Source: an uncultured Clostridia bacterium
Lineage (GTDB): Bacteria; Bacillota; Clostridia; Oscillospirales; Ruminococcaceae
Assembly: GCA_947600065.1 (NCBI GenBank)
Contig: CANQFZ010000001.1
Location: forward strand, 1 to 64,000
DNA length: 64,000 bases
Direction of reading: 5' to 3'
The notes beneath the pieces are model-generated. The model made no database searches and was not told the DNA's origin. It was given only the letters and a program-made list of their open reading frames with translations. The position numbers and the translations under genes are program-made. This document shows positions 2,983-42,927 of the stretch, one piece after another (position 1 is the first letter of the stretch; every line of letters starts with the position of its first letter).

Positions 2983-4203
2983 ATGCCCGAAAAAGCAATT
3001 CTGGTTTCCGTAGATACGGGTGAATACGACTGCGACGTGTCTTTGGACGAGCTTTCGGAGCTTGCAAAGACCGCGGGCGCCGAAGAAGCCGCGCGCGTTA
3101 TACAAAAAAGGGAAACATACGAAGCCGCAAGCGTTGTCGGAGAGGGAAAACTTAGTGAGATCTCCGAGCTTTGCAGGCTGTATTCTGCCGAACTTCTTAT
3201 ATTTGATTGCGAACTTACCGCTTCGCAGATACGCAACATCGAGGACGCGACGGAAGTCCGCGTTATCGACCGCACAATGCTTATCCTCGATATTTTCGCA
3301 GGACGCGCGGTTTCCGCAGAGGGAAAGCTTCAGGTTGAACTTGCCCAGCTCAAATATCGCCTGCCGAGGCTTATGGGAATAGGTACGAGCCTTTCCAGAC
3401 TTGGCGGAGGCATCGGCACGCGTGGTCCCGGAGAAACACAGCTCGAAACTGACCGCCGCCATATCCGCAGGCGCATTGACAAACTTTCCGAAGAACTTCG
3501 CGAGCTTGAAAAGAGGCGCGGTCTTGCGCGTTCGCGCAGAAAGAAAGACAATGTACAAGTAGGCGCTGTCGTAGGTTATACAAACGCGGGAAAATCCACA
3601 CTGTTAAATTTACTTACGGGAGCGGGAGTGCTTGCAGAAGACAAGCTCTTTGCGACGCTCGACCCAACCGCTCGTTCCGTAGAGCTTCCGGACGGACGAA
3701 ATCTTGTGCTTATAGATACCGTAGGGCTTATCCGCAGACTTCCTCATAACCTTGTAGAAGCGTTTAAGTCTACCCTCGAAGAAGCCGCAAGCGCCGATAT
3801 CATCATTCATGTCTGCGACGCTTCCGATCCCGAAGCCGCCGAAAAAGCCGACGTTACTCTTAAAACGCTTGCAGAGCTTGGCGCGGCAGAAATACCCGTC
3901 GTGACTGTCTTAAACAAATGCGATAAAATAAGCGAGGAGCTCCCGACAAATGAAAGAACGGTAAAAATATCCGCACTTAAAAATGAGGGTATCCCCGAGC
4001 TTATGCAGGCTATTTCCCGAAATCTTCCTCAGACCTCGCGCAGAATGAAACTGCTTTTGCCTTATGAAAAGGCGGGCTTGTCCGCGCAGATACGTCAGAA
4101 CGGAAAAGTCTTTTCCGAGGAATATACCGAAAGCGGCGTGCTTATTGACGCGCTTGTAGAAAACGCGCTGATAAAGCAGATGAGTGAATATATCGCCGAG
4201 TGA
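2983..4203 (+). CDS. hflX: GTPase HflX
   Basis: VGYTNAGKSTLLN, GGIGTRGPGETQLETDRR, DTVGLIRRLPH; RBS aaggag before the ATG. Confidence 0.95.
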   Translation: MPEKAILVSVDTGEYDCDVSLDELSELAKTAGAEEAARVIQKRETYEAASVVGEGKLSEISELCRLYSAELLIFDCELTASQIRNIEDATEVRVIDRTMLILDIFAGRAVSAEGKLQVELAQLKYRLPRLMGIGTSLSRLGGGIGTRGPGETQLETDRRHIRRRIDKLSEELRELEKRRGLARSRRKKDNVQVGAVVGYTNAGKSTLLNLLTGAGVLAEDKLFATLDPTARSVELPDGRNLVLIDTVGLIRRLPHNLVEAFKSTLEEAASADIIIHVCDASDPEAAEKADVTLKTLAELGAAEIPVVTVLNKCDKISEELPTNERTVKISALKNEGIPELMQAISRNLPQTSRRMKLLLPYEKAGLSAQIRQNGKVFSEEYTESGVLIDALVENALIKQMSEYIAE

Positions 4204-8297: not shown

Positions 8298-8404
8298 AAT
8301 ATTTTTACCAAAAACTTCTTGGCTTTGTCAAGTTATATTATAAATCATCTTTACAAAATAATCAAGAGCAATTTAACAAAAATTGCTGGTAATTATTACT
8401 GAAA

Positions 8405-9208
8405 TTATTCGGTAAACATACCAATTTTTCTAAATTTTTTGTAACGGTTTTCCGTGAGCTTGTCTGTCGGAACGGTTTTAAGCCTTGCGACAGCGTCAAC
8501 CAGATACTCGTAAATGCTGTCGGCGGTCTGTTCGGGATTAGTCTGCGCGCCGCCGTCGGGTTCGTTTATTATCTTGTCGCATACTCCAAAACGCGAAAGG
8601 TCTTCTGCTGTTATTTTCAGAATTTCACAGGCTTCTTTTTCTTTAGAGCCGTCTTTCCACAGTATAGACGCAGCTCCGCGCGGCGAAATAACGGAATAAA
8701 GCGCATTTGAGAGCATCGCAAGCTCGTCGCATACCGCAAGCGCCAGAGCGCCGCCGCTTCCGCCTTCTCCCAAGACTACCGATATAACGGGCGTTTTAAG
8801 CGTCATAAATTCTGCAAGGTTTTTTGCAATCGCTTCGCCCTGACCGCGTTTTTCAGCCTCTATCCCGCAGTATGCACCGGGCGTATCCACAAGGCAGATA
8901 ACGGGGCGGTGGAATTTTTCCGCCTGCCTTGCCAGTCTCAATGCCTTTCTGTAGCCTTCGGGGTGGGGCATTGAAAAATTCGTGCGGCGGTTTTCGTCGA
9001 GGGTTTTTCCCTTTACTTGTGCCAAGACCGTAACAGGCATGTCGCTTAGAAACCCAATGCCGCCGATTATAGCCGCGTCATCGCCGAACAGCCTGTCGCC
9101 GTGAAACTCCATAAACCTCGTGAATATCGCAGGGATATAGTCGTTTACGGTGGGGCGGTTTTTATTGTGAACAATTTCCATTCGCTCCCAGGCAGATAAA
9201 TTATTCAT
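8405..9208 (-). CDS. accA: Acetyl-CoA carboxylase carboxyltransferase subunit alpha
   Basis: AWERMEIVHNKNRPTVNDYI, GDRLFGDDAAIIGGI, VDTPGAYCGIEAEKRGQGEAIA, GEGGSGGALAL. Confidence 0.95.
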   Translation of the reverse strand: MNNLSAWERMEIVHNKNRPTVNDYIPAIFTRFMEFHGDRLFGDDAAIIGGIGFLSDMPVTVLAQVKGKTLDENRRTNFSMPHPEGYRKALRLARQAEKFHRPVICLVDTPGAYCGIEAEKRGQGEAIAKNLAEFMTLKTPVISVVLGEGGSGGALALAVCDELAMLSNALYSVISPRGAASILWKDGSKEKEACEILKITAEDLSRFGVCDKIINEPDGGAQTNPEQTADSIYEYLVDAVARLKTVPTDKLTENRYKKFRKIGMFTE

Positions 9209-9230: not shown

Positions 9231-10148
9231 TTATTCTTCGTTCTTTACGGGTTTGCTCCCTCTCTCTTTGGGAAATCCGTGTAGCTTTAATATGTTTGAG
9301 AGCCTTTTCCTCATCATTCCGCGCTCGACTATCATATCCACAAACCCGCAGTCCTGCTGAAACTCCGCCGACTGGAAATCGTCGGGCAGACGCTGGCGGA
9401 TAGTGTCCTGTATAACTCTTCTTCCCGCAAAGCCTATAAGCACCTTCGGCTCTGCTATAGTTATATCTCCCAGGCTCGCAAACGACGCCGTAACTCCTCC
9501 CGTCGTCGGGTCGGTCATTACCGCTATATAAAGCCCTCCCGCGTCGCTGTGGAGCTTTACCGCGCCGCTCGTCTTTGCCATCTGCATAAGCGACACTATG
9601 CCCTCCTGCATTCTGGCTCCCCCCGAAGCGGTAAACATGATCACGGGCAGCTTCTTTTCCGTCGCATATTCAAAAGCGCGCGTTATTTTTTCTCCGACAA
9701 CGCTCCCCATGCTCGCCATCATAAAATGGCTGTCCATTATGCCTATAACGCAGCGATACCCGCGGATAGTACATTCTCCCGTAACGATAGCCTCGTTCGT
9801 ATTACAATCCGCCGCGCACTTCTGCACTTTTTCCTCATATCTTGGAAATCCTATGGGATTAAGAGAATGAAGGTTTTCGTCAAAGGGAATAAAGCTCCCC
9901 TCGTCAGCTGTCATTTCAAGGCGCTCCTGCCATGTAAGCCGCGCATGATAGTTGCATTTGGGGCAAACCTTTTTATTGTTTACAAACTCGTCGTTATAAA
10001 AAACATTAGAACAGCGCGGGCATTTAAACAGCAGATCCTGCGGTATCTCAACGTCCCTGACTTCATTTTTGTCGGGAGAGCTGTGGCTGTCGTCCGTAAA
10101 ACGCGCCTTTACAACCTTAAACAGTTCTTCGATGTCCATTATGCTCAC
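9231..10148 (-). CDS. accD: Acetyl-CoA carboxylase carboxyltransferase subunit beta
   Basis: Zn finger [61 protein letters not shown]. Confidence 0.95.
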
Positions 10149-40639: not shown

Positions 40640-41848
40640 ATGAAGATCTTAGTTATCAATGCCGGCAGCTCCTCGCTTAAATATCAGCTTCTCGATATGG
40701 ACAACGAGAGCGTTATAGCAAAGGGAAACTGCGACAGAATAGGTATCGGCGGTCACATCAAGCACACTACGTTTGACGGAAAAGTAGTAGATACAGACTG
40801 CGATTTTCCGACTCATACCGAGGCTTTTGAAAAGCTCGTAGAGGTGCTTACCACGGGCGACGCGGCGGTCGTAAAGTCTATGGACGAAATTTCTGCGGTC
40901 GGACACAGAGTTGTCCACGGCGGAGAGCAGTTCGGAAAGACGATACTTGCAGACGACGCTGTCATTGACGCAATAGACGCGCTTTCGGAGCTTGCGCCCG
41001 TTCATAACCACCCGAACGCTCTTGCTCTCAGAGCCTGCAAAAAGGTGCTCGCTCCCGGTACTCCCCAGGTAGCCGTTTTCGATACGGCGTTCCATGCGAC
41101 AATGCCCGAAAAGGCGTTTATGTACGGACTTCCTTATGAGTGCTATGAGAAGTATCATGTCAGAAAATACGGCTTTCACGGAACATCGCACCGCTTTGTT
41201 TCAAAGGCACTTGCGGACGCTATGGGAAAGGACATAAAAGACCTGAAGATAGTTTCCTGCCACCTCGGAAACGGCTCGTCGATAACCGCTGTAGAGGGCG
41301 GAAAGTCAATTGATACGACAATGGGCTTTACTCCTCTCGACGGTGTTATTATGGGAACGCGCTGCGGAAGTGTAGACGCTTCGGCTGTTACGTTCATTCA
41401 GAACAAAATGGGTCTTTCGCCCAATGAAACGAGCGATTATATGAACAAAAAGTCGGGCTTCCTCGGCGTTTCGGGAGTTTCGAGCGACGCGCGCGACCTC
41501 GGCGCTGCGGCTGCCGACGGAAACAAGAGAGCAAAGCTTGCGCTTGAAATGCTCCGCTATGAGATAAAGAAGTATATCGGTTCTTATGCGGCAATTATGA
41601 ACGGACTTGACGCTGTTCTGTTCACGGGCGGTATCGGCGAGAACTCCGACGACCTGCGCGAGGACGTATGCTCGAATATGGAATACCTCGGAATAAAGCT
41701 CGACAAGGAAGCTAACAAGGGTCTCCACGGAAAGCTCGCAAAGATCTCCGCTCCCGACAGCAAGGTAGAAGTATGGGTCGTTCCCACAAACGAGGAGCTT
41801 CTTATCGCGCGCGATACAAAGGCGCTTGTCGAGGGCAAGGAAGTCTGA
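40640..41848 (+). CDS. ackA: Acetate kinase
   Basis: MKILVINAGSSSLKYQLLDM, GHRVVHGGEQF, VRKYGFHGTSHRFVS, HLGNGSSITAV; start at ATG 40640 rather than the ORF start 40388. Confidence 0.96.
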   Translation: MKILVINAGSSSLKYQLLDMDNESVIAKGNCDRIGIGGHIKHTTFDGKVVDTDCDFPTHTEAFEKLVEVLTTGDAAVVKSMDEISAVGHRVVHGGEQFGKTILADDAVIDAIDALSELAPVHNHPNALALRACKKVLAPGTPQVAVFDTAFHATMPEKAFMYGLPYECYEKYHVRKYGFHGTSHRFVSKALADAMGKDIKDLKIVSCHLGNGSSITAVEGGKSIDTTMGFTPLDGVIMGTRCGSVDASAVTFIQNKMGLSPNETSDYMNKKSGFLGVSGVSSDARDLGAAAADGNKRAKLALEMLRYEIKKYIGSYAAIMNGLDAVLFTGGIGENSDDLREDVCSNMEYLGIKLDKEANKGLHGKLAKISAPDSKVEVWVVPTNEELLIARDTKALVEGKEV

Positions 41849-41886: not shown

Positions 41887-41915
41887 TTGACAAATTCTTT
41901 TCAATATGCTATAAT
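41887..41915 (+). promoter_or_regulatory. SigA promoter of antitoxin RNA 1
   Basis: TTGACA - 17 nt - TATAAT. Confidence 0.88.
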
Positions 41916-41921
41916 GTAATT

Positions 41922-42000
41922 GTGAGATATAGAAAATGCTAAGAGTTTCATACCATCACAAAAATATCCCCCTGAGAGTGGTACTCAGGGGGACTTTTTA
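41922..42000 (+). ncRNA. par RNAII-like type I antitoxin RNA (unit 1)
   Basis: Consensus promoter and a hairpin + T5 terminator (41968-41999). Segment aaaatgctaagagtttcataccatcac is a near direct repeat of + strand 42080-42108, so it is antisense to the toxin start region. Confidence 0.8.
41968..41999. terminator. Shared bidirectional terminator CCCCCTGAG-agtggta-CTCAGGGGG
   Basis: Perfect 9-bp stem, T-run on + strand and on - strand (tattttt). Confidence 0.88.
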
Positions 42001-42014
42001 TGTAGGCTCACCGA

Positions 42015-42101
42015 TTACTGTTCTCCGTCGAGCCAATTGCAGATCGCTTCTACGAACAGACCTGCTGCGACGGATACTAAAAATGCTAAGAGTGTATCCA
42101 T
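42015..42101 (-). CDS. Fst/par-like type I toxin peptide, 28 aa (MDTLLAFLVSVAAGLFVEAICNWLDGEQ)
   Basis: Hand-translated; strong RBS gaggggaggtgttggtATG; one hydrophobic helix with a charged C-terminus; own sigA promoter; convergent antisense RNA. Confidence 0.8.
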   Translation of the reverse strand: MDTLLAFLVSVAAGLFVEAICNWLDGEQ

Positions 42102-42148
42102 ACCAACACCTCCCCTCGCATAAAGCTCGGGTGGTAACCGGCAAATGT

Positions 42149-42177
42149 ATTATATCACAGTTGAGGTTATTTGTCAA
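42149..42177 (-). promoter_or_regulatory. SigA promoter of toxin mRNA
   Basis: Minus strand TTGACA - 17 nt - TATAAT. Confidence 0.87.
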
Positions 42178-42195
42178 TTTATGTTATAAAAACTC

Positions 42196-42225
42196 TTGAC
42201 AAATTCTTTTTTGATATGCTATAAT
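42196..42225 (+). promoter_or_regulatory. SigA promoter of antitoxin-like RNA 2
   Basis: TTGACA - 18 nt - TATAAT; near-copy of 41887-41915. Confidence 0.85.
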
Positions 42226-42231
42226 GTAATT

Positions 42232-42307
42232 GTGAGATAGGAAACGCCAAAATTTCCACAGGTTCACAAAAATATCCCCCTGAGAGTGGTACTCAGGGGG
42301 ACTTTTT
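42232..42307 (+). ncRNA. Orphan par RNAII-like antitoxin RNA (unit 2)
   Basis: Same promoter and identical terminator hairpin (42276-42300) as unit 1, different recognition segment, no adjacent toxin ORF. Confidence 0.75.
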
Positions 42308-42339
42308 GTTGGCTCTCATCAGGTTTTTTTAAAATAAAT

Positions 42340-42367
42340 ATCCCTCCAATCATCGCCTTGGAGGGAT
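42340..42367. terminator. Hairpin ATCCCTCCAATCATCGCCTTGGAGGGAT
   Basis: Perfect 10-bp stem downstream of the XRE regulator gene. Confidence 0.75.
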
Positions 42368-42718
42368 CTAATTTTTTTGATTTTCATTCTGAAGTTTAAA
42401 CGCGGTTTTCAGAAGCGATAACACAAGCTCTTTTTCGCGGTCGGTCTTTCCGTGTATCTGTTGTAGCACCTGCATCGAAAGCGAGTCGATACCGAGCAGA
42501 TTTGTGTTTGATTCAGTAAATATATTACTTATTGAGAATCCCATGACCGCGCATATTTTTTCGAGCATTGAAACGGTCGGATTTGCCGTTCCGCGCTCAA
42601 GCTGTCCGTAATACGACGGCGTTATATCCGCTCTCAAGGCGACCTCTTCCTGCGACAATCCGCGCTCTTTGCGCAGCTTTCTCAGCCTTTGTCCATATTT
42701 AAAATTTTTTTCGTTCAT
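42368..42718 (-). CDS. XRE-family helix-turn-helix regulator
   Basis: GQRLRKLRKERGLSQEEVALRADITPSYYGQLERGTANPTVSMLEKICAVMG. Confidence 0.9.
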   Translation of the reverse strand: MNEKNFKYGQRLRKLRKERGLSQEEVALRADITPSYYGQLERGTANPTVSMLEKICAVMGFSISNIFTESNTNLLGIDSLSMQVLQQIHGKTDREKELVLSLLKTAFKLQNENQKN

Positions 42719-42927
42719 TTTATCACCCATTTTTATTATAAGTTATTATAATAGTAATTTCAACAAAATATAATAATTATATGAAATAGCTAATAAAATA
42801 TTTACTTTTTTTAAAATAATGTTATCAAATACAACATAAAACAAGAGCGTATGTGATAAGAAAGCCGAAATTCTCCGCAATATGTAAGGTACATAATAAC
42901 GTTTATGAGAGATTTTTGATGAAGTAT

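Follow-up and report, generated by a model that had tools for sequence, protein, structure and literature searches.

Layout of the ackA-downstream cassette

Within the 64,000-nucleotide stretch of Clostridia DNA that we analysed (hereafter called the window), a cassette of about 460 bp lies between ackA, which ends at 41848, and a small regulator-like gene on the minus strand. It contains three perfect sigma-70 promoters. The first RNA unit (unit 1) and the open reading frame (ORF) at 42015-42101 on the minus strand constitute, as judged from their sequences, a par/Fst-like type I toxin-antitoxin module. No toxin ORF adjoins the second RNA unit (unit 2), the promoter and RNA of which are intact. 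Sequence comparison and predicted base pairing indicate that unit 2 is very probably a complete antitoxin RNA gene of the par/Fst-like type I family, specific for a toxin allele, toxin B, whose gene is absent here. The features are as follows.

41887-41915, plus strand: promoter of the unit 1 antitoxin, TTGACA-17-TATAAT (12/12 match), repeated in unit 2
41922-42000, plus strand: antitoxin RNA of unit 1, with seed A at 41932-41959 and an intrinsic terminator at 41967-41993; start estimated from the -10 box
42015-42101, minus strand: toxin A ORF of 28 aa, MDTLLAFLVSVAAGLFVEAICNWLDGEQ, convergent with unit 1; Shine-Dalgarno sequence (SD) at 42107-42115
42149-42177, minus strand: toxin promoter, TTGACA-17-TATAAT (12/12 match)
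42196-42225, plus strand: promoter of the orphan unit 2, TTGACA-18-TATAAT (12/12 match)
42232-42307, plus strand: orphan antitoxin RNA of unit 2, predicted length about 76 nt, with seed B at 42240-42267 and a terminator at 42275-42301
42368-42730, minus strand: cassette-flanking gene, XRE-like by resemblance only, used as a synteny marker

At the lower threshold of 9/12, 4.3 promoter-like sites are expected by chance in the promoter scan. Units 1 and 2 are direct repeats about 308 nt apart: their 23-nt -35 regions are 100% identical, their -10 regions 94% identical, and their terminator hairpins identical. This comparison confirms the original prediction, which had described a second RNA unit with nearly the same promoter, an identical terminator and no toxin ORF beside it. 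A covariance model matches unit 2 with an E value of 2e-16, the alignment of the model having included unit 2. The resemblance also claimed between tgttggctc, after the unit 2 terminator, and tgtaggctc, in the toxin-side flank of unit 1, is a 7/8 match that carries no weight alone. A bidirectional intrinsic terminator at 41966-41994, which forms a hairpin on both strands, ends both the unit 1 RNA and the toxin A mRNA. In the predicted fold of this mRNA, the SD is hidden in a 5′ stem-loop, and the antitoxin target is presented in the loop of a second hairpin. Beyond unit 2, a bidirectional terminator-like hairpin at 42340-42367 stands at the end of the regulator-like gene, and its sequence is unrelated to the antitoxin terminators.

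The cassette resembles the par/Fst systems of pAD1 and its chromosomal relatives (PMC7472228) in its convergent promoters and common bidirectional terminator, in the direct repeats that provide antisense pairing over the SD and start, and in the predicted SD-hiding 5′ stem-loop. Some toxins of this genus family also have GTG starts. Toxin A is short and hydrophobic, its SVAAG matches the (P/D/S/T)XXXG helix motif (PMC7472228), and a tryptophan, within W-L-D close to the end, precedes the charged tail (NWLDGEQ). Unlike par/Fst, toxin A has no match to the Fst model NF033608 (19 bits for the best relative vs the cut-off of 26), and a second antitoxin unit without a toxin is present. The terminator loop of the toxin RNA, read by eye as UACCACU, has no U-turn (YUNR), a motif that is not found in all par/Fst homologs (PMC7472228).

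Two other systems are comparable. The zor/orz loci of E. coli are likewise type I loci in tandem, and their antitoxins are sequence-specific: zorO is not repressed by OrzP, and a few bases suffice for OrzO and OrzP to tell their targets apart (PMC3919570). In E. coli, orz loci that consist of the antitoxin alone are common; their promoter is conserved, and the RNA is transcribed in MG1655 (PMC11264685). Unit 2 resembles them in its intact antitoxin promoter and predicted RNA and in the lack of an adjacent toxin ORF. The type I modules of C. difficile (CD2517.1-RCd8 and relatives) are also clostridial and convergent, with antitoxins that are highly specific despite their homology (PMC6563280). 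Their toxins, however, have 50-53 aa, and the family members here score 12 to 17 bits vs a cut-off of 60.

Database searches yielded little else. Rfam gave no match at gathering scores, and weak sub-threshold matches to unrelated families were ignored; Pfam gave no credible match, and a sequence search of the PDB nothing meaningful. Plasmid DNA contained no match to the cassette, and viral contigs contained neither relatives nor an exact copy of seed B. The matches in phage DNA, which covered about 10% of the cassette and only promoter segments, were disregarded.

Predicted pairing specificity of unit 2

Which toxin does unit 2 recognize? The 23-mer seeds quoted in the original prediction indeed align without gaps, and six of their seven differences are transitions. 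The remark that many differences fall on codon third positions was overstated, the count being 3/7. The seeds had further been read, in mirror image, as M-K-L-L-A-F and V-E-I-L-A-F. The mirrored toxin start holds, while these peptides are one codon short, because the antitoxin lacks 3 nt that are present in the mRNA. For the partner of unit 2, the reading is therefore V-D-I-I-L-A-F, and not (M/V)EILAF. We rejected the idea that the mirrored seed is left over from a coding sequence; it is antisense to a toxin start, with a 3-nt gap.

The start of toxin B, GTG GAT ATA ATT TTG GCG TTT (VDIILAF), is complementary to the unit 2 seed. The pairing prediction suggested earlier bears this out: unit 2 and the toxin B start pair with -42.1 kcal/mol, the same value as for toxin B and the antitoxin that accompanies it in the sister species G006. 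By comparison, 1000 dinucleotide shuffles of unit 2 against toxin B gave -17.3 ± 3.1 kcal/mol, with -29.9 as the best. The predicted pairing of unit 1 with the start of toxin A amounts to -44.9 kcal/mol, while unit 2 and toxin A of the same cassette reach -20.1 kcal/mol, close to the shuffles (-16.7 ± 3.0). When the folding costs are included, unit 2 scores 0.0 against toxin A and -18.7 against toxin B, and unit 1 scores -23.5 against toxin A and -10.2 against toxin B. Therefore, A antitoxins keep some pairing with B, whereas B antitoxins have none with A. These energies make it unlikely that unit 2 represses the unit 1 toxin, a point that the original prediction had put forward for testing, apart from a possible kissing of the shared terminator hairpins.

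The toxin that unit 2 fits is missing from this genome. No toxin B start was found here within 3 mismatches, toxin A is the sole convincing family toxin found, and no toxin B lies elsewhere in the genome. The own-genome DNA matches beyond the two units are short, and the four that were inspected contained no antitoxin unit. The original prediction that unit 2 guards a paralogous toxin encoded elsewhere or lost thus agrees with the data, as toxin B is present at the syntenic site in the sister species G006 and G009.

From these results, we propose the following mode of action. The RNA of about 76 nt, made from a strong promoter, would meet the toxin B mRNA through complementary terminator loops. 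Pairing would then extend over the start codon and the early codons, and thereby block the translation of toxin B. The start of the resident toxin A would be handled by unit 1, unit 2 pairing not being predicted there. In par of pAD1, pairing begins at the terminator loops, and translation is repressed by pairing in the start region (PMC7472228).

The site in sister species and the family across the genus

In both G006 and G009, toxin B is found a short way downstream of ackA. The G006 locus is the mirror image of the present one: a B antitoxin stands beside toxin B, and the distal orphan bears seed A, which fits toxin A of this genome (-42.8 kcal/mol). The differences between the two species are concentrated in seed 1 (33%), the toxin start (30%) and seed 2 (37%), as compared to 3-8% elsewhere. 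In G009 the order is B, toxin B, B. In G002, two A antitoxins surround a gene with the toxin B start, which is split over two contigs (C35 and C10; L023 and L035). An interrupted toxin gene is what such a mismatch of antitoxin and toxin would demand. By reading only, the contig break appears to adjoin the end of a large serine recombinase gene.

In the four sister species, the promoter of the distal unit matches at 12, 11, 11 and 10 of 12 positions, and its terminator is kept in 4/4, while the sequence beyond has diverged. Unit 2 and the working copies in G006 and G009 have the same seed B, and the 28-nt seeds differ at 0 or 1 position; at four-fold sites, the divergence among the sister species is 14-23%. 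Next to ackA, the flanking gene is conserved in G009, G065 and G022; in G002 it is conserved next to the distal unit. In the outgroup G065, ackA and the regulator-like gene are only about 170 bp apart, and the cassette is lacking. Trees from the upstream and from the downstream sequence conflict for the four sister species, whose pairwise identities are about equal; we therefore claim no ancestral order.

A stand-alone small RNA was observed at G000:C41:18393-18505 on the minus strand (L210), and also in G006:C10, G002:C11, G009:C27 and G065:C9. It has a perfect promoter and a strong terminator, and its 5′ 38 nt are identical in four sister species. With no adjacent toxin and no matching toxin in the set, it may be another orphan antitoxin or a different small RNA.

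The family extends through the genus, members of which match uncultured Clostridia bins with "Lapin" in their names, which we read as rabbit gut, and one Oscillospiraceae bin. When 43 genomes of the genus were searched with an alignment of 13 toxins, 24 of them proved to contain relatives, and parsing for promoters and terminators returned 68 candidate antitoxin units. For 40 of the 42 distinct adjacent toxin starts, the best partner of the neighbouring antitoxin is its own toxin, the mean energies being -38.1 kcal/mol for adjacent and -19.6 for non-adjacent combinations. This statistic is somewhat favoured by construction, because the toxin of each unit was chosen partly by pairing energy; the non-adjacent comparisons and shuffles served as controls. 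The covariance model has matches in 37/43 genomes. After a wider retrieval, 117 units had E < 1e-3; of these, 67 have a cognate toxin next to them. The paired family toxins numbered 66 distinct sequences, toxin A included. Convergent toxin and antitoxin promoters are also found in the relatives, and complete modules are arrayed in tandem in G065, G036, G066, G017, G029 and G064.

Orphans that best match the toxin of another species, well beyond shuffles, are also present in G012 (C128:2219, -41.2 kcal/mol) and G064 (C31:11047, -42.1 kcal/mol). The G012 orphan is followed, after about 10 nt, by the promoter of a paired unit with a different specificity. Further such orphans, G024:C2:8232 and 9255, stand beside toxins with replaced 5′ halves. 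In these toxins (8360-8416 and 9386-9442; L079), both 5′ halves have been swapped for the same unrelated sequence, and the neighbouring antitoxins are intact. The match to foreign toxins is not universal, as many orphans of the genus match no toxin in the set. More distant modules of the same layout, with predicted pairing of -37 to -52 kcal/mol, were found on pTRACA41, on Mediterraneibacter, Waltera and Butyricicoccus plasmids, and in one inovirus. In the latter, bajarodino virus 15 (3676-3759; L249), an unannotated small toxin-like ORF faces a convergent antisense RNA candidate (-45.8 kcal/mol).

Origin and possible role of the orphan unit

How could two sister species have come to carry swapped antidotes? 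We infer an ancestral tandem array of the order antitoxin A, toxin A, antitoxin B, toxin B, antitoxin A. A single homologous deletion between repeats would yield the present locus (A, toxin A, B), and another the G006 locus (B, toxin B, A). The array would account for G000, G006 and G002 with one repeat-mediated deletion each, and is supported by the tandem arrays extant elsewhere in the genus.

Our computation shows the anatomy of the cassette, the cognate pairing, the toxin in the sister species and the reciprocal swap. Several points weigh against the reading of unit 2 as an antidote kept from such an array. The ancestral array is not seen at this site, and whole-cassette replacement by transfer could also explain the A/B swap. 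The conservation of the seed is modest evidence of selection, and could reflect gene conversion. In addition, the G006 and G009 assemblies are metagenome bins, and the distal unit of G009, which duplicates specificity B and has a decayed -10 box, fits a relic.

A neutral relic is a real contender, although we stop short of calling it probable. Unit 2 would have been left behind after the deletion of toxin B; it may be transcribed and functionless, and young enough to look intact. A toxin-less antitoxin should cost little, and the decay of the G009 -10 box and the many genus orphans without a matching toxin are consistent with this explanation. The distal promoter of at least 10/12 and the terminator kept in all four species beside a diverged flank argue against it, as does the identity of seed B with the working copies.

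Alternatively, and somewhat more tentatively, the orphan may be kept as protection from toxin B modules arriving via mobile elements or by recombination with sister species. If expressed, unit 2 would give immunity to toxin B from relatives or mobile elements. The reciprocal fit to sister-species toxins points in this direction, together with the similar orphans in G012 and G064 and the distant same-layout modules on four gut plasmids and one filamentous phage. However, unit 2 does not target the toxins that were found on plasmids and phage (-17 to -25 kcal/mol), searches of plasmid and viral sequences found no mobile element with toxin B, and selection is weakly supported.

It is unlikely that unit 2 tunes or titrates the resident toxin A. 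Its terminator hairpin, identical to that of unit 1, is complementary to the end of the toxin A mRNA, and par pairing starts at the terminator loops; repression in par, however, comes from start-region pairing (PMC7472228), and the net pairing of unit 2 with the toxin A start is nil. Least plausibly of all, unit 2 would be a trans-acting regulatory RNA for other genes and an antitoxin by resemblance only: some type I antitoxins have been suggested to do more than repress toxins (PMC11264685), and the conserved L210 RNA is of similar build, but the fit of seed B to the toxin B start equals that of a working antitoxin.

Orphan type I antitoxins are known from the orz-only loci of E. coli. In the open-access literature searched, mostly at abstract level, we found no report of a reciprocal orphan exchange between species at one locus for type I systems, or of this divergent Fst-like family. 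The family is large in gut Clostridia and lies below the Pfam and NCBIfam thresholds, and modules arranged in the same way occur on gut plasmids and in a filamentous phage. A clean natural test of relic vs immunity is offered by this pair of sister species, whose antidotes are swapped at a single locus, whose toxins are near-identical and in which specificity is confined to about 30 nt. That orphan antitoxin RNAs are, genus-wide, selected immunity genes against the toxin alleles of relatives in an RNA-based Fst-like system is a doubtful generalization as yet. If it is true, toxin specificity and orphan antidotes would co-evolve much like bacteriocins and orphan immunity genes.
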